A stretch of 64,000 nucleotides of DNA from Oxalobacteraceae bacterium OTU3CAMAD1 (lineage in GTDB: Bacteria > Pseudomonadota > Gammaproteobacteria > Burkholderiales > Burkholderiaceae_D). The stretch lies in NCBI GenBank assembly GCA_024123915.1, contig CP099650.1, forward strand, positions 3,038,001 through 3,102,000, given 5' to 3'. Positions 37,819-54,024 of this stretch are shown piece after piece. A program made the position numbers and the translations under genes. The number at the start of each line of letters is the position of its first letter. The stretch's first letter is position 1. The notes beneath the pieces are model-generated. The model saw nothing but the letters and a program-made list of their open reading frames with translations. It was not told the origin of the DNA and made no database searches.

Positions 37819-38676
37819 ATGTCGGTTTCAACTCCTGCCTACGGCGGCGCGACAGCACCAGTATCGGCGCCCGCATCAGCTCCTGATGCGGCGCCTGCCA
37901 AAACCAAGCCTTCCGTTCTGCTCTCCGTGTTGCGGCGCGCGGCCAGCCCGCTGGTGCTGCTCGCGCTGTGGGAAGTGGCTTCGCGCACCGGCTTCCTGCC
38001 GGAGCGGGTGCTGGCGGCGCCGTCGCAGATCTTTGTCACGCTGGGCGAGTTGATCGCATCCGGTGAAATGGGCAGCAACGTGTGGGTGTCGCTGCACCGC
38101 GTTCTCACCGGCCTGTCGGTGTCGCTCACCTTGGGCACCGCGCTGGCGCTGATCGCCGGCCTGTCGCGCCAGGGCGAGGTGGCGGTCGATTCGACGATGC
38201 AGATGGCGCGCACCTTGCCGTTCCTCGGCCTGGTCCCGCTGTTCATCCTGTGGTTCGGCATCGGAGAGTTCACCAAGATCGCGCTGATCGCCTTCGCCAC
38301 CACCTTCCCGATGTACTTGACGCTGTACAGCGGCATACGCGGCATCGATTCCAAGCTGGTGGAGGCGGCGCGCCTGTTCGGCCTGAGCTACCCGCAACTG
38401 ATCGTCCATGTGATCCTGCCCGGCGCCTTGCCATCCTTCCTGGTAGGCCTGCGCTACTCGCTGGGTGTCAGCTGGCTGTCGCTGGTGGCGGTGGAGCAGA
38501 TCAACGCTACGGCGGGCCTGGGCTACCTGATTAACAACGCCCGCGACTTCATGCGCACCGACGTCATCGTCGTCTGCCTGCTGGTCTATAGCCTGCTGGG
38601 CCTCGCCACCGATCTGCTGGTGCGCGCCATCGAACACTATGCGCTGGCCTGGCGTCCGACCTTCATCAAGGACTGA
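37819..38676 (+). CDS. ssuC: Sulfonate/nitrate/taurine-type ABC permease
   Basis: 285 residues of the SsuC/TauC family. An Ala/Pro-rich cytoplasmic start precedes about six membrane spans with the EAA loop EAARLFGLSYPQLIVHVILPGALP and FILWFGIGEFTKIALIAFATTFPMYL. First gene of a long operon, with a promoter element upstream. Forms an importer with ssuB and one or more of the SsuA-like binding proteins nearby. Confidence 0.87.
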   Translation: MSVSTPAYGGATAPVSAPASAPDAAPAKTKPSVLLSVLRRAASPLVLLALWEVASRTGFLPERVLAAPSQIFVTLGELIASGEMGSNVWVSLHRVLTGLSVSLTLGTALALIAGLSRQGEVAVDSTMQMARTLPFLGLVPLFILWFGIGEFTKIALIAFATTFPMYLTLYSGIRGIDSKLVEAARLFGLSYPQLIVHVILPGALPSFLVGLRYSLGVSWLSLVAVEQINATAGLGYLINNARDFMRTDVIVVCLLVYSLLGLATDLLVRAIEHYALAWRPTFIKD

Positions 38677-38678
38677 GC

Positions 38679-39542
38679 ATGCAAACCATACAACTCGACC
38701 GCCCCGGCGCGGGGATCGCCGCACGCAACGACGGCGCCTCCAGCTTCCGTCCGGAAGCGCCGGTCCCGCCGCGCACTCCGGTGCAGGCACGCCTGCTGAG
38801 CAAGCACTTCGGCCCCAACGTCATCCTCGACCAGCTCAATCTCGACATCCGCGCCGGCGAGTTCGTCGCGCTGCTGGGCCGCAGCGGCTCCGGCAAGACC
38901 ACGCTGCTGCGGGCACTGGCCGGACTGGATCGGATCACCTCCGGCACACTGGAGGTTCCGCAAGCACGGGCCGCCGTGTTCCAGGAGCCGCGCCTGATGC
39001 CGTGGAAGCGCGCCTGGCGCAACGTCACATTGGGACTGAAGATCGACCAGCCGCGCGAACGCGCACGCCGGGCGCTGGCCGAGGTTGGACTGGACCATCG
39101 GGAGAACGCCTGGCCGGCGACGCTGTCCGGCGGCGAAGCGCAGCGCGTGGCGCTGGCACGGGCGCTGGTGCGCGAACCGCAGTTGCTGCTGCTCGACGAG
39201 CCGTTTGCCGCGCTGGACGCGTTGACCCGCATCCGGATGCACCAGCTGATCCTGGCGCTGTGGCGCCAGCACCGGCCGTCGGTGCTGCTGGTGACGCACG
39301 ACGTCGACGAGGCGGTGTTGCTGGCCGACCGCGTGCTGGTACTGGAAAAGGGCCGCATCGTCTCCGACATCGCGATCACCCAGCCGCGTCCCCGCAGCGC
39401 CGAGCGGCCGGAATTCCAGCGGGTTCGCGCCCAGCTGCTGCAATTGCTGGGCGTGGAAACCGATGCTCCATCGCCGGTGCGCGAGCCGGAGCTGCAGGTA
39501 CCGGTCCACACTCCGTTCAACTTCAGTAACTTCTCGATCTGA
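38679..39542 (+). CDS. ssuB: Sulfonate-type ABC transporter ATP-binding protein
   Basis: 287 residues. Walker A GRSGSGKT (67-74), signature LSGGEAQRV (149-157), Walker B LLLLDEP (169-175), and FQEPRLMPWKRAWRNV, the SsuB/TauB Q-loop region. Starts 3 bp after ssuC. Energises the SsuC permease. Confidence 0.88.
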   Translation: MQTIQLDRPGAGIAARNDGASSFRPEAPVPPRTPVQARLLSKHFGPNVILDQLNLDIRAGEFVALLGRSGSGKTTLLRALAGLDRITSGTLEVPQARAAVFQEPRLMPWKRAWRNVTLGLKIDQPRERARRALAEVGLDHRENAWPATLSGGEAQRVALARALVREPQLLLLDEPFAALDALTRIRMHQLILALWRQHRPSVLLVTHDVDEAVLLADRVLVLEKGRIVSDIAITQPRPRSAERPEFQRVRAQLLQLLGVETDAPSPVREPELQVPVHTPFNFSNFSI

Positions 39543-39544
39543 TC

Positions 39545-40783
39545 ATGACCACATCCGTCCTCCGCCTGCCAGTCATCGATCCCGCCCATCAGCTGGATAG
39601 CCCCGAATTCGCCGCGCTGCTGGAGGGCCTGAGCGCCGAATTCGCGGCCACCGCCGAACGGCATGATCGCGACGCCAGCTTCCCGCACCAAAATTTCGAA
39701 CGCCTGCACGAACTTGGTTTGCTCGGCCTGACAGTGCCGCGCGCCCTCGGCGGCCTTGGCGCCAACCTTGCGCAGACCGCGCGCGTGGTGGCCGCCGTGG
39801 CGCGCGGCGAGCCATCCACAGCGCTGGTGCTGACGATGCAGTATCTGCACCATGCGTCGGGCCGGCAGTCGAAGTGGCCCCCGCACCTGCTGCAGCGTGT
39901 CGTCGAAGAGACCCTGCGCGATGGCGCGCTGATTAACGCGCTGCGCGTGGAGCCGGAACTGGGCACGCCCGCGCGCGGCGGCCTGCCCGCGACCACCGCG
40001 CGGCGCACGCCGGAGGGCTGGCGCATCAGCGGCCGCAAAATCTATTCGACCGGAATACCGCGCCTGACCTGGCTGGGCGTTTGGGCCCGTAGCGACGATC
40101 CGGAGCCGCTGGTCGGCAGCTGGCTGGTGCGGCGCGACACGCCGGGCATCACCGTCATCGAAAACTGGGATCACCTGGGCATGCGCGCCACCGGCAGCCA
40201 TGAGGTGGTGTTCGACGATGTGCTGGTGCCGCTCGATCATGCGGTGGAAGTGGCGCCGGCCGGCGCCGCCCCGGATCTGGATGCCTCGCTGCTGCTGTGG
40301 ATGTCGGTGCTGCTGTCGGCCATCTACGATGCGGTCGCCCGCGCGGCCCGCGACTGGCTGGCAACCTGGCTGGAAGAACGCGTTCCGGCCAACCTTGGCG
40401 CGCCGCTTTCGACCTTGCCGCGCTTCCAGGAGGCGTTGGGACAGCTGGATGCCTGGCTGTTCTCCAACCGCGTGCTGATTGAGGCCGCCGCCAACGGCGC
40501 GGTGCCGGCATCGGATGCCTTCCGCATCAAATACCTGGTCACCAACCAGGCGATCCAGGTGGTGGAAAAAGCGATTGAGTTGAGCGGAAACCCCGGCCTG
40601 TCGCGCGCCAACGCGCTGCAGCGCCACTACCGCGATGTGCTGTGCAGCCGTATCCACACGCCGCAGAACGACACCATTTTAGTCAACAGCGGCAAGGCGG
40701 CTTTCGCCGCCCACGCCGCAAAGAAAACCTCCTCGTCCGGCGTGGCCGGTATTTCATCCATCACTGCAAAGGAAGCATCATGA
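39545..40783 (+). CDS. Acyl-CoA-dehydrogenase-fold flavin monooxygenase (SfnB/DszC-like)
   Basis: 412 residues with the acyl-CoA dehydrogenase fold (FERLHELGLLGLTVPRALGGLGA, DHLGMRATGSHEVVFDDVLVP, GNPGLSRANALQRHYRDVLCSRIHTPQN). Members linked to sulfonate transporters (SfnB, DszC types) use FMNH2 to oxygenate sulfur compounds rather than CoA esters. It sits between ssuB and an SsuD-like monooxygenase, which supports that role. Starts 2 bp after ssuB and overlaps the next gene by ATGA. Confidence 0.8.
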   Translation: MTTSVLRLPVIDPAHQLDSPEFAALLEGLSAEFAATAERHDRDASFPHQNFERLHELGLLGLTVPRALGGLGANLAQTARVVAAVARGEPSTALVLTMQYLHHASGRQSKWPPHLLQRVVEETLRDGALINALRVEPELGTPARGGLPATTARRTPEGWRISGRKIYSTGIPRLTWLGVWARSDDPEPLVGSWLVRRDTPGITVIENWDHLGMRATGSHEVVFDDVLVPLDHAVEVAPAGAAPDLDASLLLWMSVLLSAIYDAVARAARDWLATWLEERVPANLGAPLSTLPRFQEALGQLDAWLFSNRVLIEAAANGAVPASDAFRIKYLVTNQAIQVVEKAIELSGNPGLSRANALQRHYRDVLCSRIHTPQNDTILVNSGKAAFAAHAAKKTSSSGVAGISSITAKEAS

Positions 40784-41895
40784 GCATCGAATTCATCGGC
40801 TTTAGCGCCACCCAGGAAGTCTCCGAAACCGTGCTGCCGCAGGGTTCCGTTGTCAACAAGAGCTTCCTGGGAGCGGTGGCCCGCGCCCACGAATACGCCG
40901 GTTTCGACCGCGTGCTGGTGGCCCACAGCAGCGCGTCGGTGGACGGCTTCCAGGTCGCCTCCTATATCGCTTCTCAGACGCAGAAACTGGGCATCCTGCT
41001 GGCCCATCGCCCCGGCTTCGTGTCGCCGACCCTGGCGGCGCGCCAGTTCGCGACGCTGGACCACTTCAGCGACGGCCGCCTGGCGGTACACGTCATCAGC
41101 GGCGGCGACGACACCGAACAACAGCGCGACGGCGACTTCCTCGATCACGACCAGCGCTACCAGCGCACCGACGAATACCTGGACGTGGTCCGCAAAACCT
41201 GGACCTCGGAGGGACCGTTCGACCATGAAGGCCCGATCTACCGCTTCAAAGGCCAAAACGCCGGCGTGCGTCCACTGAACAACCAGCACATCCCGGTCTA
41301 CTTCGGCGGATCGTCCGAGGCGGCCATCGAGGTCGCCGGCAAGCACGCCGACGTCTATGCGCTGTGGGGCGAATCGCTGGCCCAGGTGGCGGAGACTATC
41401 GCACGGGTGCGAGCCGCCGCCGCCAAGCATGGCCGCGCCGACAAGATCCGTTTCAGCCTGTCGCTGCGCCCCGTGCTGGCCGCGACCGAGGACCAGGCCT
41501 GGGCCAAGGCGGACGCGATCCTGGCCACCGCCACGGAGCGGGTCAAAGGCAATACCTTCTTCAGCCAGCGCCCGCAGCAGCCGCAGAACGCAGGCTCCCA
41601 GCGCCTGCTCGACACCGCCGCGCAGGGCAGGGTGGTCGACGAGCGCCTGTGGACCGGCATCGCGGCGCTGACCAAGGCGGCCGGCAATTCCACCGGCTTG
41701 GTGGGTACGCCGGAACAGGTGCGCGATGCGTTGCTCAAGTACTGGGAACTGGGCGTGACCACTTTCCTGATCCGTGGCTTCGATCCGATCCAGGACGCCC
41801 TGCAGTACGGCCGCGAGTTGATTCCCCTGGTGCGCGCGGCGGTCGCCGGGCGCGAAGCGCAGCAAGCCGGCCAGCCTTCCCGCCTGGCCGCCTGA
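40780..41895 (+). CDS. LLM-class flavin monooxygenase, SsuD-like
   Basis: 371 residues, alkanesulfonate-monooxygenase-like TIM barrel (LGILLAHRPGFVSPTLAARQ, HFSDGRLAVHVISGGDD, DGDFLDHDQRYQRTDEYLDV, PVYFGGSSEAA). Would cleave C-S bonds of a sulfonate with FMNH2 and O2, giving sulfite and an aldehyde. ATG 40780 is chosen for its GGA site and ATGA overlap. No SsuE-type flavin reductase is found in the window. Confidence 0.87.
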   Translation: MSIEFIGFSATQEVSETVLPQGSVVNKSFLGAVARAHEYAGFDRVLVAHSSASVDGFQVASYIASQTQKLGILLAHRPGFVSPTLAARQFATLDHFSDGRLAVHVISGGDDTEQQRDGDFLDHDQRYQRTDEYLDVVRKTWTSEGPFDHEGPIYRFKGQNAGVRPLNNQHIPVYFGGSSEAAIEVAGKHADVYALWGESLAQVAETIARVRAAAAKHGRADKIRFSLSLRPVLAATEDQAWAKADAILATATERVKGNTFFSQRPQQPQNAGSQRLLDTAAQGRVVDERLWTGIAALTKAAGNSTGLVGTPEQVRDALLKYWELGVTTFLIRGFDPIQDALQYGRELIPLVRAAVAGREAQQAGQPSRLAA

Positions 41896-41908: not shown

Positions 41909-42877
41909 ATGAGCCAAACGACCAGCTTGAAGAACGGCGACATTATCGTCGCCAGCCAGTTCGACCCCAAGGTCAACGCGCTGCTGGCCCAGCGTACCGG
42001 CCTCGCCGTGCGCGATGTGCCGCCCGGTCCGCTGACCGCGCTGCCGCAGGGCGCGGACGTCCTGTTCGCGCTGCCCGCGCCGAAAGGCCAGACGCTGTTG
42101 CAAACACCAGCGCCGGCGGGGTGGAGCGAGGTGCGCTGGGTGCAACTGGCGTCGGTCGGCATCGACTACTACCCCGATTGGCTGTTCGACGGACCTGTGG
42201 TCACCTCGGCGCGCGGCACCGCCTCGGTGGCGATCGCGGAATACGTGCTGGCGGCGATCTTCACGGCCGCCAAGCAGATTCCGGATATCTGGCTGGAGCA
42301 GGCCAGCGACTGGCGCCGCCTGTCGCTTGGCCTGGTGCAGGGGACCACGTTGGGCCTCTACGGCTTCGGTTCGATCGGCCGGGCGCTGGCGCAGCGGGCG
42401 CTCGCGCTGGGCATCAAGGTGGTGGCGCTGCGCCGCTCCGACGCGGCATTCGGTGTCGAAGGCGTCGAGCGGGTCGACTCGCTGGATCAACTGCTGGCGC
42501 GTTCGGACCACCTGGTGCTGGCGGCGCCATCGACCGCCGAAACGCGCCACGCCATCAGCCGCGCCGCGCTGGCCCATGCCAGGCCCGGTCTGCATCTGAT
42601 TAATATCGCGCGCGGCAATCTGGTCGACCACCAGGCGCTGCTCGACGCGCTCAACGAAGGCAAGGTGGCGCTGGCGACGCTGGACGTCACCGATCCCGAG
42701 CCGCTGCCGGCCGGCCACGCGTTCTACGGCCATCCGCGCGTGCGCCTGTCGCCTCATATTTCGCCCAGCACCGACCAGATCGTGCCGGCGCTGATCGACA
42801 AGTTCGTGCTGAACCTGGACCGCTTCCGCAGCGGCGAACCATTGACCGACGTGGTCGACACCGCGCGCGGCTACTGA
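41909..42877 (+). CDS. D-2-hydroxyacid dehydrogenase family protein
   Basis: 322 residues with NAD-binding GLYGFGSIGRALAQRA and active-site elements NIARGNLVDHQAL (Arg), DPEPLP (Glu) and LSPHISPS (His). It reduces a 2-oxoacid or oxidises a D-2-hydroxyacid, possibly the carbon product released by the monooxygenases. Spacing to both neighbours is under 20 bp. Confidence 0.85.
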   Translation: MSQTTSLKNGDIIVASQFDPKVNALLAQRTGLAVRDVPPGPLTALPQGADVLFALPAPKGQTLLQTPAPAGWSEVRWVQLASVGIDYYPDWLFDGPVVTSARGTASVAIAEYVLAAIFTAAKQIPDIWLEQASDWRRLSLGLVQGTTLGLYGFGSIGRALAQRALALGIKVVALRRSDAAFGVEGVERVDSLDQLLARSDHLVLAAPSTAETRHAISRAALAHARPGLHLINIARGNLVDHQALLDALNEGKVALATLDVTDPEPLPAGHAFYGHPRVRLSPHISPSTDQIVPALIDKFVLNLDRFRSGEPLTDVVDTARGY

Positions 42878-42894: not shown

Positions 42895-43764
42895 ATGAGC
42901 AGCTCATCACCACTGTACTCGGCGCCGCTGTCGCGGCCCCACCTGCGCCAGGTCGGCAAAAACACACCGCGTCCGGCGATCTACGCCGCGCCGCGCGACG
43001 CGAATGGGGCCATCATCTTCGCCGAGCCGCCGCCGCCACCGACCATCGAGGCCCAGCGACAGTATCGCAAGGAGCGGCTGGCCGTCTCCTTCCGCCTGTT
43101 CGCGCGCTATGGCTACGACATGGGCGGCGCGGGACACATCACCGCGCGCGACCCGGAATTTCCGGACCACTTCTGGGTCAATCCGGCCGGCGTCTACTTC
43201 GGCCACATACGCGTATCGGACCTGATCCTGGTCAGCCACGACGGCAAGGTGGTCGAGGGCGACGGCCTGCTGAACCGCGCCGCGTTCGCGATCCACTCGG
43301 AGCTGCACAAGGCGCGGCCGGACGTCATCGCCGCCGCCCATTCGCACGGCCTGTATGGCAAGGCGTTCGCCGCGCAGGGCAGGTTGCTCGACCCGCTGAC
43401 CCAGGATTCCTGCGCGTTCTACCAGGACCACGCGATCTTTTCGGACTTCAGCGGCGTGGTGCTCGATTCGAGTGAGGGCGAACGCATCGCCGCCACCTTG
43501 GGCCAGCGCAAGGCGGTGATCCTGCAGAACCATGGCTTGCTGACGGTTGGCGCGTCCGTGGAGTCGGCTGTGTGGCGCTACATCGCGTTCGAGAATGCCG
43601 CCCAGGCGCAGTTGTTGTCCGAGGCGGCCGGGCCGACCAAGCCGATCCCGCACGAGGTGGCGCTGCACACGGCCGGCCAGATCGGTTCCGACGCCGGGGG
43701 CTGGTTCAGCTTCCAGCCGCTGTGGGACGTGATCACCCGCGAAGAGCCGGACCTGTTCGACTAA
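42895..43764 (+). CDS. Class II aldolase/adducin-family protein
   Basis: 289 residues. Zinc ligands of the fold are visible as His149 and His151 (AAAHSHGLYGK) and His213 (LQNHGLLTVG). The position that carries the catalytic Glu in fuculose aldolase lies in an adducin-like LLNRAAFAIHSELH segment, so the reaction may not be a classical aldol cleavage. Precedes the tonB gene by 15 bp. Probably handles a carbon product of desulfonation; inferred from context. Confidence 0.78.
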   Translation: MSSSSPLYSAPLSRPHLRQVGKNTPRPAIYAAPRDANGAIIFAEPPPPPTIEAQRQYRKERLAVSFRLFARYGYDMGGAGHITARDPEFPDHFWVNPAGVYFGHIRVSDLILVSHDGKVVEGDGLLNRAAFAIHSELHKARPDVIAAAHSHGLYGKAFAAQGRLLDPLTQDSCAFYQDHAIFSDFSGVVLDSSEGERIAATLGQRKAVILQNHGLLTVGASVESAVWRYIAFENAAQAQLLSEAAGPTKPIPHEVALHTAGQIGSDAGGWFSFQPLWDVITREEPDLFD

Positions 43765-43779: not shown

Positions 43780-44583
43780 ATGTCTAGCGCCACATTGTCA
43801 TTGAACGACGCATACCGGGCGGACCAAGGGGGTGCAGATTCGCCGAGTGTGGGATTCGCCACGTCCTATCTGCACACGGCGGCCGCGAAACCGGCGGGTT
43901 GGCTGCGCAGTCCCGGCGCCGCCGGCACGGTGCTGGTGCATGGTGCGGCGCTGCTGGCCATCTGGAGCTTTTCCAGCGCTGTCGTCAAACCTCCGGTGGC
44001 GCCGCCGGTGGTGGAGCTGATTCGGTTGCAGCCGGAGCCCAAGAAGGAACTGGCGCCGCCCAAACCGGAGCCGGTGAAGGAAAAACCGGTGCAACTGGCG
44101 CCGCCCAAACCGGTGGCCCAGCCTTTGCCGACGCCGAAGACGGTGGAGACATCCGCCGACAAAGCCGAGACCTATACGCCGCCCGCGCCGCCGGTGCAGG
44201 CCGCGCCCATAGGCCCGGTGAAACCGGTGGAGCCGGCACCGCCACAACCGCCGGCTCCGGCGCCGGTGGCCGCCGCACCGAAGCAGATCAGCACCGAAGG
44301 CATTCCGACCGATTATGTGAACCAGGTCTACGCCCGTATCAACAGCAACACCGATTATCCGCGCGAGGCGAAGATGCGCCGCCAGCAGGGCAAGGTCGCT
44401 TACCGCCTGACCCTCAACCCGCAGGGCGCGCTGATCTCCTTCGATATCCAGTCGTCCGGCGTGGAAGCGCTGGACGAGGCGGCGCGCGACGCGATTCGGC
44501 GCGCGGCGCCATTCCCCCGGTTGCCCGATCTGGGTGGCAGCACGTATCTGCTGGCCGGGAACATCGTCTTCAAAATTAACTAG
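43780..44583 (+). CDS. tonB: TonB energy transducer
   Basis: 267 residues: a cytoplasmic start, one membrane span (about 47-66, GTVLVHGAALLAIWSF), a long Pro/Lys/Glu-rich periplasmic spacer (EPKKELAPPKPEPVKEKP), and a C-terminal TonB domain (DYPREAKMRRQQGKVAYRLTLNPQG). Transmits proton-motive force to outer-membrane receptors. Followed by exbB and exbD and then a receptor gene, so it is probably a dedicated system. Confidence 0.9.
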   Translation: MSSATLSLNDAYRADQGGADSPSVGFATSYLHTAAAKPAGWLRSPGAAGTVLVHGAALLAIWSFSSAVVKPPVAPPVVELIRLQPEPKKELAPPKPEPVKEKPVQLAPPKPVAQPLPTPKTVETSADKAETYTPPAPPVQAAPIGPVKPVEPAPPQPPAPAPVAAAPKQISTEGIPTDYVNQVYARINSNTDYPREAKMRRQQGKVAYRLTLNPQGALISFDIQSSGVEALDEAARDAIRRAAPFPRLPDLGGSTYLLAGNIVFKIN

Positions 44584-44597: not shown

Positions 44598-45395
44598 ATG
44601 AGTGCTACCCAAGTTGTCGCCCAGTCTGTTGCTCATCTGTCGCCGTTGCAGCTGTTCGAACAGGCAGACTTTATCGTTAAATCCATCATGGTGGTGCTGG
44701 TGCTGGCGTCGCTCGCCAGCTGGGGCGTCATCATCGACAAGCTGCTGCGCTTTTCGCGTCTGCGCCGCAATGCCATCGCCTGGACCGGCGCATTGGCCGG
44801 ACAGCGCTCGCTAACACGGCTGGCGCAGGAGCTCAAACAGAATACGCAGGACCCGTTCGCCCGCATCTATCACGCCATCGTCGACGAGTGGAACACCAGC
44901 CATCGCCAGCATCTGCATGTCGATGCGGCGGGACGCGACAGCCTGAAGGAGCGCATCAACCGCGTGGGGCAGATCAGCAGCAACGTCGAGGTGGAGGAGC
45001 TGCAAAAGGGCTTGTCGATACTGGCGACAGTCGGTTCGGTCGCGCCTTTCGTCGGCCTGTTCGGCACCGTCTGGGGCATCATGAACGCGTTCCAGGGCAT
45101 CGCCGCCAGTAACAGCACCAGCCTGGCCGTGGTGGCGCCGGGGATCGCCGAGGCCTTGTTCGCCACCGCGCTAGGCCTGGTGGCCGCGATTCCCGCCGTC
45201 GTCGCCTACAACCGCGCATCCGGTGACTTGAACAGTTACGCCGCACGCCTTTCCACCCTGGTCGGACTGGTGGAGGTGCAGCTGTCGCGCCAACTGGAAG
45301 CGGGGGAGGCACTGGTGGAGACTATCGACGCGGCGCCGGCCAAGGCTGACCGCGCCGCGCGCAACGTCACGCCGCTGGCGGCGCAGGGAGCCTGA
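44598..45395 (+). CDS. exbB: ExbB/TolQ-type proton channel protein
   Basis: 265 residues with three membrane segments (IMVVLVLASLASWGVIIDKLL, LSILATVGSVAPFVGLFGTVWGIM, and EALFATALGLVAAIPAVVAYN). Works with ExbD and TonB in the inner membrane. 14 bp after tonB. Confidence 0.92.
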   Translation: MSATQVVAQSVAHLSPLQLFEQADFIVKSIMVVLVLASLASWGVIIDKLLRFSRLRRNAIAWTGALAGQRSLTRLAQELKQNTQDPFARIYHAIVDEWNTSHRQHLHVDAAGRDSLKERINRVGQISSNVEVEELQKGLSILATVGSVAPFVGLFGTVWGIMNAFQGIAASNSTSLAVVAPGIAEALFATALGLVAAIPAVVAYNRASGDLNSYAARLSTLVGLVEVQLSRQLEAGEALVETIDAAPAKADRAARNVTPLAAQGA

Positions 45396-45396: not shown

Positions 45397-45819
45397 ATGG
45401 GCGTCCGTTTATCCTCAGGCCCGGCCCACCGCCCTGGTCCGGTCAGCGACATCAACGTCACGCCGCTGGTCGATGTCATGCTGGTGCTGCTGATCGTGTT
45501 CATGGTGGCGGCGCCGATGATGACGGCCGGCGTCAAGGTCGATCTGCCGACTTCGAGCGCCAAGCCGCTGGAGGAGCCCAAGCCGCCGATCGTCGTCAGC
45601 ATCGACGCCAGCGGCACGGTCTTCGTCAACCAGACCGCCGCCACGCCGGACACGCTGCTGCAGCTGATGGCGCAGGAAGCGGCCGGCGACAAGGAACGCC
45701 GCATCCACCTGCGCGGCGACCAGGCGCTGGCTTACGGCCGCATCGTCAAGACGATGGGAGCGCTGAACGATGCCGGATATGCCCGCATCGCGCTGGTCTC
45801 GGAAGCGCCCGCGCCCTAA
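45397..45819 (+). CDS. exbD: ExbD biopolymer transport protein
   Basis: 140 residues, one membrane span with the proton-carrying Asp26 in TPLVDVMLVLLIVFMV and a periplasmic domain. Starts one base after exbB. Confidence 0.92.
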   Translation: MGVRLSSGPAHRPGPVSDINVTPLVDVMLVLLIVFMVAAPMMTAGVKVDLPTSSAKPLEEPKPPIVVSIDASGTVFVNQTAATPDTLLQLMAQEAAGDKERRIHLRGDQALAYGRIVKTMGALNDAGYARIALVSEAPAP

Positions 45820-45844: not shown

Positions 45845-46858
45845 ATGGATTCGATCACTTCGAAGGGCGACACTCGCCGTCAATTTCTGCGCCGGAGCGC
45901 GCGATTGGGCGCCGGCGCCGGACTGGCCGCGCTGCTGGGCGGCTGGAGCAACGCCACCCGCGCTGCGGCCGCGCAACTGCGCGATACCACGCTGCGGGTA
46001 GGTACGTACAAGGGTGGCGACTCCTACTACTTCAACGAGGCGGGCGTGGCCGCCATCCCGTACAAGACGGCGTTGGCCGAATTCGCGGCCGGGAACCTTA
46101 TCGTCGAAGCATTGGCGTCGGGCTCCCTGGATTTCGGCTCCATGAGCGAAATCCCGCCGATCTTCGCCGCCGCCAGCGGCACGCCGCTGAAGGTGATCGC
46201 CGTGCTGCGCGGGGACGTCAACAACCAGGTGGTGCTGGTGCCGAAAAACTCGTCCATCACCGATCCGGCCCAATTCAAGGGCAAGCGCATCGGCTATGCG
46301 CGGTCGACCACCTCGCACTACTTCCTGCTGCAGCTGTTGAAAGAAAACGGCCTTGGGTTCAAGGACATCCAGCCGGTGGCGCTGCCGCCTCAGGACGCCT
46401 TCGCGGCCTTTAAAAGCGGGCAGCTCGATGCGTGGGTGATCTATGGCCTGGTGGTGGAACTGGCCAAAAGCCAGGAGGGCGCGCGCGTGCTGCGCACCGC
46501 CGACGGCTACCTGTCAGGTAACTATGTCATCAGTACGTCGCCGCAGGCGATCGCCGATCCGCTCAAGCACGCCGCCATCGGCGACTACCTTCAGCGCTTG
46601 GCCAAGGTCTATGAATGGATCAACCGCAATCCAAAGCCTTGGGCGGCCAAGAGCGGGCGGATCGCCGGCGTGTCGCCGCAGGTCTTCCTCAACCAGGCCA
46701 CCCAGCGCAGCCAGCCCTACAAGCTTGTGGGCGTGGACGACGCGGCGATCAAGTCGCAGCAGCAGGTGGCCGATGTGTTTTCCGATGCCGGCCTGCTGGC
46801 GCGCCGCATCGACGTCAAACCAATCTGGGACCGCAGCTTTGCCAAGTACCTGGCCTGA
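45845..46858 (+). CDS. ABC substrate-binding protein, SsuA/NMT1 type
   Basis: 337 residues with a Tat-like leader (DTRRQFLRRSARLGAGAG). Binding-protein features include TLRVGTYKGGDSYYFNEAGV, LVEALASGSLDFGSMSEIPP-like content and GKRIGYARSTTSHYFLLQLL. One of three SsuA-type binding proteins in this region. It may give SsuBC a second ligand specificity. AGAGG precedes the ATG. Confidence 0.85.
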   Translation: MDSITSKGDTRRQFLRRSARLGAGAGLAALLGGWSNATRAAAAQLRDTTLRVGTYKGGDSYYFNEAGVAAIPYKTALAEFAAGNLIVEALASGSLDFGSMSEIPPIFAAASGTPLKVIAVLRGDVNNQVVLVPKNSSITDPAQFKGKRIGYARSTTSHYFLLQLLKENGLGFKDIQPVALPPQDAFAAFKSGQLDAWVIYGLVVELAKSQEGARVLRTADGYLSGNYVISTSPQAIADPLKHAAIGDYLQRLAKVYEWINRNPKPWAAKSGRIAGVSPQVFLNQATQRSQPYKLVGVDDAAIKSQQQVADVFSDAGLLARRIDVKPIWDRSFAKYLA

Positions 46859-46892: not shown

Positions 46893-49397
46893 ATGCAGCA
46901 CTATAAGAACAATCAACCAAAACTGAAGGCTCTGCGCCTGGCGCTGCTGACGACCGGCCTGCTGGGAGGCGCCGGCGCGTTGGCGCAGACCAGCGTGGGG
47001 CAGGTGCAGGACGTGGTGGTCACCACCGGCGTGCGCGGCGAGGCGCGCACCGTGGCGGACAGCCCGGCGCCGATCGACGTGATCAGCGGCGAGCAATTGA
47101 TCCACACCGGCCGCGCGGAGCTGGCCGAGGCGCTGGGACGGCTACTGCCGTCGTTTAACTTCGGGACCAACCAGGCGGGCGTCAACTCGGTGGTGCGGCC
47201 GGTCAGCAACCGTGGCCTGGGACCGGCCTACACGCTGGTACTGGTCAACGGCAAACGTCGTCACAACTCGGCGCTGCTGACCAACGGCGGCGGCGACACC
47301 AGCGGTGTGAACGCGATCGATCTCGATACCATTCCACTCAGCGCCATCGACCATATCGAAGTGCTCAAGGACAGCGCTGCCGCACAATACGGCTCGGACG
47401 CGGTCGCCGGGGTGGTCAACGTCATCCTTAAGACGGGTAACCACGGCGGCCAGATTTCGGCCAGCTATGGAGAGTTGAAGAGCGGCGCTGGCGACCTGTC
47501 CAACAAAAAACTGGAGGGCGGCGTCGGCTTCGCGTTGGGCGACGACGGTTTTGTCCACATCGCGACCGCGCTGCGCAAGCGCGGCCAGTCCTGGAACAAC
47601 TTCCCGTCGAAGAACCTGGTCGCTTATTCACCCGCGTCGAATCCCAAGAACGCGACCTGGAACCGCGACGGCGCGCACAACGGCGATCCGGGAATCGAAG
47701 CCTACGATCTGGCCTTCAACGCCGAGAAGCCGTTCAACAAGGACATCACGCTGTACGCGTTCGGTACTGCCGGCACACGCAACACGGTGGCGGGCAATAA
47801 CTTCCGTCGTCCAAACGGGCTGGCGACGATAGCGCAGGTCTACCCGGACGGCTACTTCGCGCTGAATAATATGAGCGCCTTCGACTTCCAGTTGAACGCC
47901 GGCGCGCGCGGGCGAACCGCCGGCTGGAACTGGGATATCAGCACCGGCTACGGCAAGAACCGCGCCCGCCAATACAGCAACCTGACCTTGAATCCCTCGT
48001 TGGGGCCGACGTCGCCGACCAGCTTCGATAACCTGGCCGTCTATCAGTTCGAACAATGGACCACCAACGAGGACTTCACGCGCGCATTCGACATCGGCCT
48101 GAAAAAGCCGTTGCAGTGGTCGTGGGGCCTGGAACAGCGCGTCGAGCGCTTCACCACCTATGCCGGCGATCCGCTGGGGTACATCAACGGCGGCTACATC
48201 TTCAAACCCGGCGACCAGGAGGGCAATCCGAATGTCGGCAAGCCGGCCGCCGTCGGTGCGCAGGCCGGCGTGGCGTTGTCGCCTGCCGACGCGACCAGCA
48301 TCCAGCGCACGGTGCTGGCGATCTACAACGACATCGGTTTCTATCCGATAGAGAACCTGTTCGTCGATGGCGCGGTGCGCGCGGAGCATTACAACGACAG
48401 CGCGGGCAACACCGCCAGCGGCAAGATCAACAGCCGCTACGACTTCTCGCCGACGTTCGCGGTACGCGGCACGGTTGGTTCCGGGTTTCGCGCGCCTTCG
48501 CTGACGCAATCGGGCTACTCGCAGACAGACAACCGCACCAACATCAACCCGGTCACCGGGGTGGTGGAACCCAGCTTGTCCAAGCTGCTACGCAACGATT
48601 CGGCTTTGGCCCGCCAGTTCGGCGCGCGCGATCTCGATCCCGAGAAGTCGGTCAACTTCGGCATCGGCCTGGTACTCAAGCCTGCCGATAACATCAACAT
48701 CACACTGGATGGCTACCAGGTCAAGGTCAAGGATCGCATCATCCGCACCGGCTACATGTTCGGACCCGCCTTCGCGCCGACCCTGGTGGCCGGTGGGCTG
48801 ACCGGCACCGAGTGGGTGCAGTACTTCGCCAACGGCGTCGATACCCGCACGCGCGGCACCGACCTGGTAGCCGACATCACCAGCGACTACGGCAGCTATG
48901 GCCTGGTGCGTTGGGGCGCGGCGGTCAACTGGAATCGCACCAAGATTACCAATATCAAGGCTACGCCATCGGAGATCACGGGACTGGGCGCCAATCCGGG
49001 CGGCAGCTCGGTGTGGTTCGGCTACTCGGCCGGCGGCGGCATCGGCGACCTGACCGCAACCCCCAAGACCAAGCTGATATTGTCGGCGCGCTGGTTCATC
49101 GGGCCGGTGGAGGCGAACCTGCAAACCACCCGCTACGATTCCTCCACGTGGCAGACCACCGCCGATCGAACCAAGGACTATCACTTCGGCGCCAAATGGC
49201 TGACCGACCTCGATGTCAGCTATGCCGTCACCAAGCGCGCCAAGCTGGTGGTCGGCGCGGCCAACCTATTCGACACCAAACCGGATCGCAACGGCCCGGG
49301 CGACGCCAATTCCGGCAGCAGCGGCTTTGTCTACGGCCCCGCGCCATTCGCGCCGAGCGGCGCCTACTACTATGGCAAGGTCACTTATGACTTCTGA
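46893..49397 (+). CDS. TonB-dependent outer-membrane receptor
   Basis: 834 residues with signal peptide ending near AGALAQ, plug (VQDVVVTTGVRGEARTVADS, LVLVNGKRRHNSALL, IEVLKDSAAAQYGSDAVAG) and terminal strand YYYGKVTYDF. ATG 46893 is preferred: it has GGGA upstream and starts the signal peptide, whereas the open frame extends far back through the previous gene. Paralogue of the receptor at 34302. Clustered with tonB-exbBD, it is probably the main port for the operon's substrate. Confidence 0.9.
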   Translation: MQHYKNNQPKLKALRLALLTTGLLGGAGALAQTSVGQVQDVVVTTGVRGEARTVADSPAPIDVISGEQLIHTGRAELAEALGRLLPSFNFGTNQAGVNSVVRPVSNRGLGPAYTLVLVNGKRRHNSALLTNGGGDTSGVNAIDLDTIPLSAIDHIEVLKDSAAAQYGSDAVAGVVNVILKTGNHGGQISASYGELKSGAGDLSNKKLEGGVGFALGDDGFVHIATALRKRGQSWNNFPSKNLVAYSPASNPKNATWNRDGAHNGDPGIEAYDLAFNAEKPFNKDITLYAFGTAGTRNTVAGNNFRRPNGLATIAQVYPDGYFALNNMSAFDFQLNAGARGRTAGWNWDISTGYGKNRARQYSNLTLNPSLGPTSPTSFDNLAVYQFEQWTTNEDFTRAFDIGLKKPLQWSWGLEQRVERFTTYAGDPLGYINGGYIFKPGDQEGNPNVGKPAAVGAQAGVALSPADATSIQRTVLAIYNDIGFYPIENLFVDGAVRAEHYNDSAGNTASGKINSRYDFSPTFAVRGTVGSGFRAPSLTQSGYSQTDNRTNINPVTGVVEPSLSKLLRNDSALARQFGARDLDPEKSVNFGIGLVLKPADNINITLDGYQVKVKDRIIRTGYMFGPAFAPTLVAGGLTGTEWVQYFANGVDTRTRGTDLVADITSDYGSYGLVRWGAAVNWNRTKITNIKATPSEITGLGANPGGSSVWFGYSAGGGIGDLTATPKTKLILSARWFIGPVEANLQTTRYDSSTWQTTADRTKDYHFGAKWLTDLDVSYAVTKRAKLVVGAANLFDTKPDRNGPGDANSGSSGFVYGPAPFAPSGAYYYGKVTYDF

Positions 49398-50388
49398 TCC
49401 CAATCGCATCCGGCGTTTGCTGGCGATGCTGCCGGCGGCGGCGCTGCTGGGCGCCTGCGGCAAGGCAGGCGATGCCGGCGAAGCGGCAAGCACCGGCGCT
49501 CCCGTCGACCTGTCCAAAGTGACTGTGGTGTTGGGCGACCAGGTCAAGCTGCTGCGCACCAAGGCGGAAGCGGCCGGGGTGCTCACCGACGTGCCTTACA
49601 AGATCCAGTGGGCCAGCTTCCAGGGCGCCGCGCCGCTGTTCGAGGCGGTGGTGTCGGGCGATGTCGATACGGCGATGGCGGCCGACACGCCAGCCCTTGC
49701 GGCGGCGGCGGGAGGTGCGCGCGTCAAGGTGGTCGCGGCCAGCGTGTCGTCGCCGACCGGTGTGGCGATACTGGTACCCGCCGGATCGCCTATCAAGTCG
49801 GTGGCCGATCTTAAAGGCCGCAACGTCATTGTCTCTTCGGCGCGCGGCAGCGTCGCGCATTATCTGCTGTTTGGCGCGCTTCGCGAGGCGGGCCTCAAGC
49901 CGGACGATGTCACCACTGGCTTTCTGCTGCCGAGCGACGCCGCCGTCGCCTTCTCCAGCGGGAAGATCGAAGCCTGGGCCACCTTCGGCACCTACCAGGC
50001 CAACGCCGAGATTCATGGCGCGCGGGTGTTGCGCGATGGCGTGGGCATCAATTCCGGCATCGGCGTGATCGCCGCGTCGAATGCCGCGCTGGCCGATCCG
50101 GGCAAGCGCGCCGCGTTGGCCGACGTGCTGCGTCGCCTGGCGCTCTCCAACACCTGGGCCAACGCGCACCCCAAGGAGTACGCTGAAGTGTTCCAGCGCT
50201 TGACCGGTTTGCCGGCCGATGTGGTCAAGTTGGTGGTCGATCGCGACCGCCCGCAGCTACGCCCGGTCGATCAGCAGATCATCACGCAGCTGCAGCAGGT
50301 GGCCGATACATTTTTTGAAGCGAAGCTGTTCCCGCGCCGGGTCGATGCCAGCCGGCTGGTCGACAACACACTTTTCCGGCCGGCTTAA
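49387..50388 (+). CDS. Lipoprotein ABC substrate-binding protein, SsuA/NMT1 type
   Basis: 333 residues with a lipobox LLGAC (Cys about residue 24), so it is membrane-anchored. Binding-protein features include LFEAVVSGDVDTAMAADTPAL and DLKGRNVIVSSARGSVAHYLL. The start at 49387 overlaps the receptor end by 11 bp, with AAGG eight bases upstream, indicating coupled translation. A lipidated binding protein is unusual among SsuA relatives. Confidence 0.85.
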   Translation: MTSDPNRIRRLLAMLPAAALLGACGKAGDAGEAASTGAPVDLSKVTVVLGDQVKLLRTKAEAAGVLTDVPYKIQWASFQGAAPLFEAVVSGDVDTAMAADTPALAAAAGGARVKVVAASVSSPTGVAILVPAGSPIKSVADLKGRNVIVSSARGSVAHYLLFGALREAGLKPDDVTTGFLLPSDAAVAFSSGKIEAWATFGTYQANAEIHGARVLRDGVGINSGIGVIAASNAALADPGKRAALADVLRRLALSNTWANAHPKEYAEVFQRLTGLPADVVKLVVDRDRPQLRPVDQQIITQLQQVADTFFEAKLFPRRVDASRLVDNTLFRPA

Positions 50389-50421: not shown

Positions 50422-51762
50422 ATGACTACATCCCAACCATCGCGTCAACTCAAACTCGGATTCATCCTGCACGGCGTCGGCCCAGGTTGGGGCGACTGGC
50501 GCCATCCCGATGCCGATCCGACCGCCAGCACCAATATCGATTTCTACCTGCGCCAGGCCAAGCTGGCGGAGGAGGGCAAGTTCGATTTCCTGTTCGTGGC
50601 CGACAGCGTCCACATCACCGAGAAATCCAGCCCGCACTACCTGAACCGCTTCGAGCCGCTGACCATCCTCTCGGCGCTGGCAACCGCCACGAAGAACATC
50701 GGCCTGGTGGGCACGCTGACGGTCAGCTACAGCGAGCCATACACGGTCGCCCGCCAGTTCGCGTCGCTGGACCATATCAGCAAGGGTCGCGCCGGCTGGA
50801 ACGTGGTCACGTCCTGGCTATCGGGCAGCGCCGAGAACTACGGCAAGCCTACGCACCCGCCGCACGAGGTGCGCTACCGCATCGCCGCCGAGCATCTGCA
50901 AACCGTGCAGGGGCTGTGGGATTCGTGGGAGGATGACGCGCTGGTGCACGACAAGGCCAGCGGCCAATTCATCGATCCCGAAAAATTGCACACGCTGCAC
51001 CACCAGGGCGAGTTCTTCTCGGTGCGCGGTCCTTTGAACATCAGCCGTTCGCCGCAAGGGCAGCCTGTGATTTTCCAGGCCGGCGCTTCCGAGGACGGAC
51101 GCAATTTCTCGGCGCGTCACGCGGAGGCCTTCTTCACCGAGGGATCGAACTTCGAATCGTCGCAGGCCTACTACGCGGACATCAAGAAGCGCGCCGCCGC
51201 CTTCGGCCGTCCGGCCGGCAAGCTGGCGGTGTTGCCGGCGCTGCGCGCCATCGTCGGCAAAACCGAGGAGGATGCGCAACGCCTCTACCAGGAAGCGGTG
51301 GCGCTGGTCCGCATCGAGGATGCGCTGGTGGCGCTGGCGCGCTCGTTTAACGAACACGACCTGACGCAGTACCCGCTCGACGGACCATTCCCGGACATCG
51401 CCCAATACGGCGCTGAGAGCAATCGCAGCGCTTCCGAGCGCATCATCCGCACCGCGCGCGACGAAAACCTGACTTTGCGCGAGACCGCGCTGCGCTACGC
51501 CAGCCCGCGCAAGGAGTTTGTCGGCACCGGCGTACAGGTGGCCAACGCGATCCAGCACTGGTTCGATGGCGGCGCCGCCGACGGGTTTATACTGTTTGAA
51601 TCGCTGCCACGCCAGCTCGACGCGTTTGTCGCCGAGGTGGTGCCGGTGCTGCAGCAGCGCGGCCTGTTCCGCCTGGACTACGGGCACACCACCTTGCGCG
51701 GCAACCTCGGGCTGGACGTTCCGGAAAACCGCAACACCGCCGCACGCCGCCAGGCCGCCTGA
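50422..51762 (+). CDS. LLM-class monooxygenase of the NtaA/SnaA/DszA family
   Basis: 446 residues ([76 protein letters not shown]). The family oxidises sulfones, sulfonates or aminopolycarboxylates with FMNH2. Operon context favours a sulfur compound. CAGGAG precedes the ATG. The second LLM enzyme in the operon, distinct from the SsuD-like one at 40780. Confidence 0.87.
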
Positions 51763-51790
51763 CAGGGGTGACTTAGATGAGGAGACTTAA

Positions 51791-52372
51791 ATGAGTGCAT
51801 CACCAGGTTTTGAAACGCCGGCCCGCCTGCGGCATTTCGTCGAGGCGCTGGACTCCCTGCTGGGGCAGGGCTACGAAACGGACGAAACGCGCATCGTCGC
51901 GCAGGGCTCCAAACTGCTGCGCGAACTGATCGCCCATGACGATTGGCTGCCGCAGCAGGCCGCGCTGCCCGACCCGCAGTACTACCGCCAATATCTGCTG
52001 TATCGAGATCCGGCGGCGCGGTTCTCGGTGGTGAGCTTCGTCTGGGGACCGGGCCAGTCGACGCCGATCCACAACCACACGGTATGGGGCCTGATCGGCC
52101 TGCTGCGCGGCGCCGAGATCTCGCAGGACTACCGCCGCCGCGCCGACGGCCTGCTCGAAAAAGTGGGCGAGCCGCAGCGGCTCGAAACGGGCGTGGTGAC
52201 GGCCGTATCGCCAACGCTGGGCGACATCCACCAGGTCTTCAACGCCTACGACGACCGCATCTCGATCGGCATCCACGTCTACGGCGCCGACATCGGCGCA
52301 GTCGATCGCAGCGTGTTCACGCCGGAGGGCGCGGTCAAGCCTTTCCGCTCCGGCTACGCCAATGCCGCCTGA
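51791..52372 (+). CDS. Thiol dioxygenase, 3-mercaptopropionate dioxygenase type
   Basis: 193-residue cupin of the cysteine dioxygenase family. Iron ligands are His94 and His96 (TPIHNHT) and His147 (GDIHQVF). The residue that is Arg in cysteine dioxygenases is Gln67 here (YYRQYLLY), as in bacterial 3-mercaptopropionate dioxygenases. It would oxidise a small thiol to its sulfinate. GGAG precedes the ATG. It sits directly before a rhodanese and after a desulfurising monooxygenase. Confidence 0.82.
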   Translation: MSASPGFETPARLRHFVEALDSLLGQGYETDETRIVAQGSKLLRELIAHDDWLPQQAALPDPQYYRQYLLYRDPAARFSVVSFVWGPGQSTPIHNHTVWGLIGLLRGAEISQDYRRRADGLLEKVGEPQRLETGVVTAVSPTLGDIHQVFNAYDDRISIGIHVYGADIGAVDRSVFTPEGAVKPFRSGYANAA

Positions 52373-52404
52373 TCGCCACACACAATCCAAGGAATTCGAA
52401 AGCC

Positions 52405-54024
52405 ATGACTAAAAACCTGCTTCAAACCGGCCTGCTTGGCTTCCCTTACCGCAGCCCGCAGCAAGTGCGCGAAGACCTGCTGGCGCGACGCGAGATCGCG
52501 CTGCTCGACGTGCGTGAGGAGGATCCGCACGCGCAGGCGCACCCGCTGTTCGCCGCCAACCTGCCGTACGGCCGCATCGAGCTGGATGCCTACGCCAAGC
52601 TGCCGCGCCGCGATGTGCACATCGTCGTGCTGGATGGCGGCGAGGGCCTGGCCGTATCCGCCGCCAGCCGTCTGCGCCAATTGGGCTACACCGACGTTTC
52701 GCTGCTCGCCGGCGGCGTCGCCGGCTGGCAGGCCGCCGGCGGCGAGTTGTTCCGCGACGTGAATGTGCCCAGCAAAGCCTTCGGCGAGTTGGTGGAGGCC
52801 AGGAACCACACGCCATCGCTGTCGGCGCCGGAGGTGAAGGCGCTGATCGACGGCGGTAAAGATATCGTCATCCTCGATGCGCGCCGCTACGACGAGTACC
52901 AGACCATGAGCATCCCGGGCAGTTTCAGCGTTCCAGGCGCCGAGCTGGCGCTGCGCGCGCGCGAGCTGGCGCCGAACCCGAAGACACAAATTATCGTCAA
53001 CTGCGCCGGCCGGACCCGCAGCATCATCGGTACACAATCGCTAATCAACGCCGGAATTCCGAATCCGGTTGCTGCACTGCGCAACGGCACCATCGGCTGG
53101 ACATTGGCCCGCCAAAAACTGGAACACGGCCAGTCGCGAAGCTATCCGCCGGCGTCCGATACGAACCGGCTGACGGCCGCCGACGACGCCAGATCGCTGG
53201 CCGACCGCACAGGTGTGCGCCGCCTCGATCGCGCGGGGCTCGATCAACTGCGGGCCGACGCCACCCGCACCACCTATCTGTTCGACGTGCGCGGTCCGGC
53301 GGAATTCCGCGACGGCCGCCTGCCTGGCTTTCGCTCCGCACCGGGCGGTCAACTGGTGCAGGAGACCGAACAGTTTGCGCCGGTGCGCGGCGCCCGCATC
53401 GTGCTGGCCGACAGCGACGGCGTGCGCGCCAACCTCACCGCGCACTGGCTGGCGCAGATGAACCACGAGGTCTATGTGATCGACGGTCTGCAAGCCACCG
53501 ACTTCAACGTGACGGAGGCGTGGACCGACGAACTTCCGCCACATCCCGAAGTACGCGAAATCGGCGCGGAGGCGCTTGCGCAATGGCTCGCCGACGCGCC
53601 GGAGGAGACGGTGCTGCTCGACTTTACGTCCGGGGTCAATTATCAAAAGCGTCATATTCCCGGCGCATGGTTCGCGCTGCGCTCCGAATTGCCGGCTGTC
53701 GTAGCGAAGCTTTCGCCCGGCGCCAAACGCTATGTGCTCACCTGCGGCAGCAGCCTGCTGGCGCGCTACGTGGCCGGCGACGTCCGCGCGATGACCGATC
53801 TGCCGGTGTATGTACTTACCGGCGGGACGACGGCATGGGCAGCCGCCGGGCTGCCGCTGGAGGAGGGGCCGACGCGCCTGGCGTCGCCGCTGATCGACCG
53901 CTATCGCCGCCCCTACGAGGGCACAGACAATCAGGACGAGGCGATGCAGGCCTATCTCGATTGGGAGTTCGGGCTGGTCGAACAGCTCGGACGCGACGGC
54001 ACGCACGGGTTTGTGGTTTTCTGA
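52405..54024 (+). CDS. Four-domain rhodanese-like sulfurtransferase
   Basis: 539 residues with four rhodanese repeats: about 15-117, 135-242, 275-375 and 385-487. Only domain 2 (Cys200, VNCAGRTRS) and domain 4 (Cys447, LTCGSSLLAR) carry the catalytic Cys. Domains 1 and 3 have GGEG and SDGV in place of the active loop. No signal peptide. Moves sulfane sulfur in the cytoplasm. ATG 52405 follows AAGGAA; the frame is open further upstream inside the dioxygenase gene. Last gene of the operon, followed by a terminator. Confidence 0.85.
   Translation: MTKNLLQTGLLGFPYRSPQQVREDLLARREIALLDVREEDPHAQAHPLFAANLPYGRIELDAYAKLPRRDVHIVVLDGGEGLAVSAASRLRQLGYTDVSLLAGGVAGWQAAGGELFRDVNVPSKAFGELVEARNHTPSLSAPEVKALIDGGKDIVILDARRYDEYQTMSIPGSFSVPGAELALRARELAPNPKTQIIVNCAGRTRSIIGTQSLINAGIPNPVAALRNGTIGWTLARQKLEHGQSRSYPPASDTNRLTAADDARSLADRTGVRRLDRAGLDQLRADATRTTYLFDVRGPAEFRDGRLPGFRSAPGGQLVQETEQFAPVRGARIVLADSDGVRANLTAHWLAQMNHEVYVIDGLQATDFNVTEAWTDELPPHPEVREIGAEALAQWLADAPEETVLLDFTSGVNYQKRHIPGAWFALRSELPAVVAKLSPGAKRYVLTCGSSLLARYVAGDVRAMTDLPVYVLTGGTTAWAAAGLPLEEGPTRLASPLIDRYRRPYEGTDNQDEAMQAYLDWEFGLVEQLGRDGTHGFVVF

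Follow-up and report, generated by a model that had tools for sequence, protein, structure and literature searches.

Which sulfur compound, and by what route, would a bacterium acquire with an outer-membrane receptor, a TonB motor, an ABC importer and several desulfurizing enzymes encoded in a single gene string? The question is raised by a 64,000-nucleotide stretch of DNA from Oxalobacteraceae bacterium OTU3CAMAD1 (the window; positions 3,038,001–3,102,000 of a one-contig 7.48-Mb genome), whose nearest named relatives, in a scan with an aldolase alignment, are Duganella. To our knowledge, the outer-membrane uptake of less simple organic sulfur by Gram-negative bacteria is poorly known. According to the accessible text of PMC4267179, more than 95% of soil sulfur is organic. 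A sequence-only reading of the window had proposed a self-contained organosulfur acquisition and desulfuration system with its own TonB motor. The cluster is real, conserved and coherent, and it is a variant of organosulfur acquisition, not a new category. From sequence, we interpret it as part of a LysR-controlled, two-promoter scavenging regulon for an amino-acid- or peptide-type organosulfur substrate that would undergo periplasmic deamination and then cytoplasmic desulfuration, an interpretation to which we give an even chance.

The block comprises 15 plus-strand genes, with the first ATG at 37819 and the last stop at 54024 (Table 1). Profiles from Pfam and NCBIfam, together with searches against solved structures, bore out the gene content that had been described, as well as the small gaps (−11 to +34 bp, a range that depends on the starts we chose for LLM1 at 40780, the receptor at 46893, the second binding protein at 49387 and the rhodanese at 52405). 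The LysR gene and these 15 genes recur as 16 genes in unchanged order in Undibacterium, Janthinobacterium, Pseudoduganella, a Rugamonas metagenome-assembled genome (MAG) and Duganella species, so the arrangement is not due to chance; the search for the same set and order in other genomes, suggested by the sequence-only reading, was thus answered in several genera. This conservation also supports the view that a single organosulfur block unites an outer-membrane receptor, an importer and several flavin enzymes. A terminator-like hairpin (−28.9 kcal/mol, z −4.15) follows the rhodanese gene, and a sigma-70 promoter scan of 36600–54300 gave nothing above chance (one site versus 2.6 expected). Co-transcription of the 15 genes is suggested by their small gaps and conserved order, together with the operator-like element and the hairpin. 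No match to viral contigs was found.

Distribution was examined in 85 loci, namely the best 80 of 463 confirmed in the aldolase-alignment scan plus L147, L148, L149, L047 and L048 (L and G numbers are our handles for loci and genomes). Nine genes were taken as the core: ssuC, ssuB, acad, LLM1, hadh, ald2, sbp1, the dioxygenase and the rhodanese. The sample was chosen by aldolase similarity and does not reflect population frequency, and flanks reached at most 10 kb, so absences make the gene content of a locus a lower bound. At least six of the nine core genes occur in 43/85 loci, and 40 of these 43 core loci also carry a TonB-dependent receptor of one of the three types searched for (none was found in L074, L094 and L112). 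The six-gene threshold leaves out the two pieces of G112 as well as G250 (L147), which has tonB-exbBD and five core genes. Among 399 genomes drawn evenly from the order, just six, the source genome included, hold the aldolase at E ≤ 1e-95, and orthologues of the cluster receptor (74–98% identity) occur in 5/194 other genomes drawn from the family. The earlier statement that known sulfonate clusters contain a subset of these genes is broadly right, with the correction that Pseudomonas, Phenylobacterium and Sphingomonas, among others, have near-complete equivalents. No description of the cluster or of these equivalents was found in the open-access literature, a search that most subscription papers lie outside.

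Two copies of an operator-like element of ~53 bp, agreeing at 43/56 bases, precede the amine oxidase gene (copy A) and ssuC (copy B). The latter lies in the 129-bp LysR–ssuC gap, which contains an element conserved among orthologues. A 20-base pattern of the element matched only A and B within two mismatches (0 and 2) in the 7.48-Mb genome, with four further sites at three mismatches; the reversed control gave no site. Relatives were scanned with a pattern of 38 fixed positions and at most nine substitutions, for which the reversed-pattern control gave 0 matches in 2.03 Mb. The element lies 5′ of ssuC in 17 genomes, each counted once (the window, L061–L074, L076 and the ssuC arm of G112). A second site was detected in six genomes: 5′ of the amine oxidase gene in the window, G089, G166 and G188, 5′ of the LysR gene in Undibacterium (G187, the genome of L064), and 5′ of the acad arm in G112 (nine substitutions). 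When loci whose flank does not reach past the 5′ end of the amine oxidase gene are left out, the second element is present in 5/5 genomes with an amine oxidase whose upstream region could be examined, and in 1/4 examined LysR-upstream regions without one; it was not found in the LysR-upstream regions of L068, L073 and L074, even at 14 substitutions. A strict pattern gave six matches in five relatives, all at the cluster locus, and none for its control. With up to 9/38 substitutions allowed, the Pseudomonas, alpha-proteobacterial and Amantichitinum loci gave no match to the element, and neither did G250 and G562, so that it marks Oxalobacteraceae members only. Nine Pseudomonas loci (L083, L086–L089, L091, L093, L095 and L099) show another stretch between LysR and ssuC, TATATTAGxTTAGAA...CGAATTTCACG, which is mutually similar by eye.

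Because the element is common to both transcription units and confined to the cluster locus, the amine oxidase, RidA, second receptor (TBDT0) and LysR genes (32157–37689) are probably in the same regulon as the 15-gene block. Both units would be regulated by this LysR, and the block is probably one half of a LysR regulon of about twenty genes. The divergent binding-protein gene sbp0, which is also found in G089, G166, G188 and L073, presumably belongs to it. The description 'self-contained' was therefore too strong: the regulon probably extends upstream to the amine oxidase, RidA and the second receptor, and the scanned window genes include no flavin reductase (the rest of the genome was not searched for one), so the three flavin enzymes would need a reductase from elsewhere.

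The amine oxidase matches Rhodococcus opacus L-amino-acid oxidase (L-AAO; 2jae) with 281 bits over residues 55–520, and it keeps the Arg of GATRIP and the Trp of AWQ, which we take to be L-AAO substrate-site residues. Export signals are predicted on both the amine oxidase and RidA in the window and in P. protegens, and on the amine oxidase of G112. Amine oxidase and ridA accompany the core in 10 Pseudomonas loci and in G112; in the 10 Pseudomonas loci, a gene for an M19 dipeptidase lies alongside them. The L-AAO likeness, the export signals, the dipeptidase, the CmoJ likeness of LLM2 and the altered binding site of LLM1 argue for an amino-acid- or peptide-type substrate that would be worked on first in the periplasm.

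In the proposed route, a scarce amino-acid- or peptide-type organosulfur compound would enter the periplasm through two TonB-dependent receptors, both driven mainly by the TonB-ExbB-ExbD of the cluster. The substrate would most likely be a cysteine S-conjugate or other thioether and less likely a sulfonated amino acid; in Pseudomonas, the dipeptidase may release the amino acid beforehand. Exported L-amino-acid oxidase and exported RidA would convert the amino acid into a 2-oxo acid in the periplasm, and the product would reach SsuBC by way of the SsuA-like binding proteins. Once it is in the cytoplasm, acad and the CmoJ-like LLM2 may oxidize the sulfur and cleave the C–S bond, with LLM1 contributing an additional flavin oxidation, while the 2-hydroxyacid dehydrogenase and class II aldolase would process the oxo-acid carbon. 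The thiol dioxygenase and rhodanese would then take the released thiol or sulfane sulfur to sulfite or sulfide for assimilation. We infer the substrate class, the order of steps and the products from these likenesses. The sequence-only reading had taken the complete uptake route with its own energiser, plus several desulfuration chemistries, to imply a large or uncommon compound too big for porins; this is not supported here, and a TonB-dependent receptor can also serve scarcity. The substrate of the cluster receptor is unreadable from structures, since its best solved relative scores only 60 bits.

Although they are the top matches, the NCBIfam equivalogs for SsuC (235.7 bits, cut-off 347) and SsuB (261.2, cut-off 395) remain below threshold; for the SsuA family TIGR01728 (cut-off 163.5), sbp0 (178.9) and sbp1 (163.6) score above and sbp2 (157.5) below. 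The acad protein reaches 118 bits with the SfnB model (cut-off 430.9), and its nearest solved relatives are 5z8t/5gj7 and nitrososynthase-type flavoproteins. LLM2 scores 531.3 bits with TIGR03860 (cut-off 279.7), and its closest solved relative is YtnJ/MoxC (535 bits), which we take to be CmoJ; its placement in the CmoJ branch is by sequence only. As described in the available part of PMC10863075, CmoJ cuts the C–S bond of N-acetyl-S-alkylcysteine sulfoxide. A dibenzothiophene-type (Dsz) pathway was considered and rejected: the DszC model scores only 39.8 (cut-off 850), and the SsuA-like proteins, with their export or lipoprotein signals, do not look like a DszB-type cytoplasmic desulfinase.

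LLM1 scores 233 bits with the SsuD model (cut-off 518.2), and a full SsuD is present elsewhere in the same genome (624 bits). LLM1 was compared at the MsuD-numbered sulfonate-binding residues W195, R225, R296 and A/S299, as given in the accessible portion of PMC8234197, in an alignment whose L068 row is unresolved and which includes five rows, from L100, L101, L131 and L140, that do not belong to the cluster type. The resolved cluster-type rows have FSxSxRP in place of the SsuD/MsuD stretch FGIRLHV, with Ser at the R225 site, and RGF(D/E) in place of SGY. The R296 site is Lys, Gly, Asn or Arg, the Arg equivalent being mostly lost, and the Trp is kept in pairwise alignment. In MsuD, the mutations R225A, R296A and W195A left no measurable sulfite, according to the same portion of PMC8234197. 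By these residues, LLM1 differs from a standard alkanesulfonate monooxygenase. LLM1 occurs as a tandem pair in Amantichitinum (L080) and G562 (L148), hinting at divergent substrates within the subfamily.

Among the remaining enzymes, ald2 has its nearest solved relatives in 4xxf (244 bits) and NovR (9ryg, 231 bits). The dioxygenase narrowly misses the Pfam CDO_I cut-off (22 bits, cut-off 23) and scores 214–227 bits against 4qma, 6xb9, 3uss/4tlf and 4wvz; by this similarity and its metal His-x-His motif, it is of the 3-mercaptopropionate dioxygenase type. By eye, only domains 2 and 4 of the rhodanese show a Cys where the active loop is expected. A glutathione S-transferase gene lies 3′ of the rhodanese gene in five alpha-proteobacterial loci (L078, L079, L081, L084 and L085).

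The gene set is rearranged in G112, where two divergent arms flank a region with two operator-like elements: ssuC-ssuB-LLM1-ald2-tonB-exbB-exbD-receptor on one side and acad-hadh-sbp1-ridA-TBDT0-amine oxidase-LLM2 on the other. Its LysR (68% identity; the sole match at E ≤ 1e-30) is on another contig, unlinked from these elements, and adjoins an sbp2-like gene (38%), a dioxygenase (61%) and a rhodanese (64%). Since the parts are kept despite broken linkage, the gene set appears to serve one function.

Several observations weigh against the amino-acid interpretation. The SsuA-like appearance of the binding proteins would suit sulfonates; within flanks of at most 10 kb, LLM2 was seen in only 3/28 core loci outside Oxalobacteraceae, and LLM1 in 0/10 Pseudomonas loci. 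Undibacterium (L064), the Rugamonas MAG (L068) and Duganella sp. 1224 (L073) have the core but no amine oxidase, RidA or TBDT0 next to it; the core can therefore do without deamination. In G112, the amine oxidase shows just 40% identity and might represent a different member, and the sbp2-like protein is likewise distant. The catalytic triad of 3-mercaptopropionate dioxygenase is Ser-His-Tyr. The presumed triad Ser would lie two positions ahead of the IHVYG His, and Gly stands in its place in 14/14 aligned enzymes of the complete-cluster type (that of the window and 13 close orthologues); Ser is present in the remaining aligned rows and in the G112 copy. Part of this evidence would suit a broad sulfonate/sulfone scavenging operon, in which enzymes for several unrelated small organosulfur compounds are expressed under sulfur starvation and the amine oxidase–RidA pair is an unrelated neighbour. 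The SsuBC/SsuA similarity, the three binding proteins with three monooxygenases of different types, and the three Oxalobacteraceae loci just named, together with alpha-proteobacterial loci that also lack amine oxidase and RidA, speak for such an operon; we nevertheless consider it somewhat unlikely, as it leaves unaccounted for the operator-like element common to amine oxidase-ridA-TBDT0 and the block, the recurrence of amine oxidase and ridA with the core in Pseudomonas and G112, and the missing R225 equivalent in LLM1. Alternatively, cysteate (or homocysteate, or their peptides) might undergo periplasmic deamination to sulfopyruvate, which would be imported by SsuABC, reduced by hadh to sulfolactate and desulfonated by LLM1, with the aldolase acting on the carbon product. 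As a matter of pathway logic, this would join L-AAO, RidA, SsuA-like proteins, a 2-hydroxyacid dehydrogenase and an SsuD-type fold; it is distinctly improbable, given that LLM1 lacks the R225 and mostly the R296 equivalent and that the CmoJ-like LLM2, thiol dioxygenase and rhodanese would stay unexplained.

A separate question is whether the motor belongs to the system. A TonB C-terminal domain and two motor subunits are encoded in one gene string, found immediately 3′ of ald2 in the Oxalobacteraceae clusters, Amantichitinum, G112, G250 and G562. In NCBIfam, the ExbB-type subunit passes TolQ (223.9, cut-off 221) and misses ExbB (201.2, cut-off 206.2), and the ExbD-type subunit reaches TolR (127.3, cut-off 127.3) and misses ExbD (124.0, cut-off 152.95), which suggests a Tol-type origin although the partner is TonB. 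The genes could be ordinary housekeeping copies that came into the operon by chance, any TonB serving the receptors, and the Tol-like scores would agree with that, as would the genome's own supply (8 TonB_C and 10 MotA_ExbB matches beside 112 TonB-dependent receptor matches). An ExbB tree left most forks open, with the branching of the genome's own paralogues not settled. Only 16/43 core loci have tonB and 15/43 both exbB and exbD, the latter including a Caulobacter MAG (L096) with exbB and exbD on the opposite strand and no tonB; tonB was not found within the flanks of the Pseudomonas, alpha-proteobacterial and Herbaspirillum (L074) loci. In Duganella flavida (L069, ~10800–11750), tonB is present without an exbB/exbD match in an otherwise complete cluster, a further point against a dedicated motor. 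The housekeeping explanation is all the same unlikely in view of the fixed position behind ald2 and of the ExbB identities, which are 72–79% to other genera of the family, 59–67% to the cluster ExbBs of other families (Amantichitinum, G250 and G562) and at most 42% to the five alignable paralogues of the same genome; at E ≤ 1e-45, a relative occurs in 1/368 other genomes drawn from the class, and the 20 kb examined around it contain none of the core genes. As the cluster ExbB is nearer to those of other families than to its own paralogues, we read TonB-ExbB-ExbD as a dedicated motor that accompanies the cluster in different families yet is not general to the system. The earlier notion of a private motor stands to that extent, and falls short for the alpha-proteobacterial and Pseudomonas loci.

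A wider proposal can be held tentatively, below an even chance: a widely distributed, undescribed proteobacterial periplasm-first route that combines receptor uptake, a dipeptidase, deamination with RidA, a repurposed SsuABC and a new subfamily of SsuD-like enzymes for flavin-dependent C–S cleavage; its motor would accompany this single nutrient system in three or more families of the order.

Known systems share parts of this organization. The ssuEADCB/msu alkanesulfonate systems also have an SsuBC importer, SsuA-like binding proteins and an SsuD/MsuD-superfamily monooxygenase; unlike them, the cluster has no SsuE-type reductase among its scanned genes and no R225 equivalent in LLM1, and it adds a receptor, TonB motor, dehydrogenase, aldolase, thiol dioxygenase and rhodanese. 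The ats-sft sulfate-ester cluster of Pseudomonas sp. UW4, with the TonB-dependent receptor SftP, resembles ours in its SsuABC-type transporter, receptor and LysR regulator; the seven genes listed in the available text of PMC3596284 include an arylsulfatase and an alkylsulfatase, but no TonB-ExbBD and no comparable enzyme set. The scanned window genes include neither an arylsulfatase nor an AtsK-type alkylsulfatase. Salvage of S-alkylcysteine by Bacillus CmoO/CmoJ, in the available part of PMC10863075, resembles the cluster through LLM2 as organosulfur amino-acid salvage by flavin-dependent C–S cleavage in soil bacteria; in contrast, the cluster has no acetyltransferase or deacetylase among its scanned genes, and it has an exported oxidase, RidA and a TonB route.

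The order of thiol dioxygenase and then sulfurtransferase is shared with the 3mdo-tst pair (P. protegens CHA0; PA2602-PA2603), and in P. protegens FD6 such a pair adjoins the same core. Loss of 3mdo in CHA0 raises 3-mercaptopropionate (PMC12947264, accessible portion). That portion covers the pair and 3-mercaptopropionate only, whereas the pair studied here lies in the operon and has Gly for the dioxygenase Ser. In Dickeya dadantii, sftP, atsR, ExbB, ExbD and astB (sulfonate permease) are entered as ABF-0019117, -0019118, -0019122, -0019124 and -0019125 in the part of PMC4079955 available. A motor beside an organosulfur transporter may therefore be not wholly new, adjacency being inferred from the numbering alone; the enzyme set is not listed there, and no word of that text begins with 'sulfur' or 'sulfonate'. 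A link between receptors and sulfonate had likewise been noted for sphingomonad TonB-dependent transporters, assigned by gene context; this is a table entry, and the accessible text of PMC7142613 describes no cluster, motor or enzyme set. With its element, receptors, own motor and named enzymes, the conserved cluster makes outer-membrane organosulfur uptake testable and supplies a sequence tag for finding further members. The labels 'SsuD' and 'sulfonate transporter' on such clusters may mislead.

Table 1. Features of the regulon and its boundaries, in window coordinates
Feature	Position	Strand	Basis or remark
SsuA-like periplasmic binding protein sbp0	30977..31942	-	Pfam NMT1; divergent from amine oxidase gene
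Operator-like element A	32054..32106	+	Upstream of amine oxidase gene; present in relatives too
L-amino-acid-oxidase-like flavoprotein (amine oxidase)	32157..33746	+	RR (Tat-like) signal, N-terminus MTVSRRTFLVQ
RidA-family protein	33772..34272	+	Pfam Ribonuc_L-PSP; Sec-like signal peptide
TonB-dependent receptor TBDT0	34302..36689	+	Pfam plug and barrel
LysR-type regulator	36763..37689	+	Pfam
Operator-like element B	37696..37748	+	Upstream of ssuC
SsuC-like ABC permease	37819..38676	+	Pfam, NCBIfam
SsuB-like ABC ATPase	38679..39542	+	Pfam, NCBIfam
acad, acyl-CoA-dehydrogenase-fold (group D type) flavin monooxygenase	39545..40783	+	Profiles, solved relatives
LLM1, SsuD/MsuD-superfamily luciferase-like monooxygenase, divergent binding site	40780..41895	+	Profiles, alignments
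2-Hydroxyacid dehydrogenase (hadh)	41909..42877	+	Pfam, NCBIfam
Class II aldolase / NovR-type family protein (ald2)	42895..43764	+	PRK06208, 412.5 bits (cut-off 255)
TonB	43780..44583	+	TonB_C, 49.2 bits
ExbB/TolQ-type motor subunit	44598..45395	+	Pfam
ExbD/TolR-type motor subunit	45397..45819	+	Pfam, NCBIfam
SsuA-like binding protein sbp1	45845..46858	+	RR (Tat-like) signal
TonB-dependent receptor (cluster receptor)	46893..49397	+	Pfam
SsuA-like lipoprotein sbp2	49387..50388	+	Lipobox LLGAC
LLM2, NtaA/DmoA-type monooxygenase, CmoJ-like	50422..51762	+	TIGR03860
3-Mercaptopropionate-dioxygenase-type thiol dioxygenase (cdo)	51791..52372	+	Solved relatives
Four-domain rhodanese	52405..54024	+	Pfam
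Terminator-like hairpin	54036..54092	+	3′ of rhodanese gene

The genes mcp and akr downstream (54189–57120) were considered as parts of the cluster and rejected, as the hairpin lies between and neither occurs in the Undibacterium flank examined. The first of these, a methyl-accepting chemotaxis protein gene (54189–55922), stands right behind the hairpin, likewise in G089, G166 and G188, and its product could sense the same compounds as the cluster. On the other side of the regulon, window positions 26845–30083 hold a further TonB-dependent receptor gene that overlaps a fatty-acid-desaturase-fold gene by 1 bp; both members of this pair are near the cluster in G089 and G188 too.

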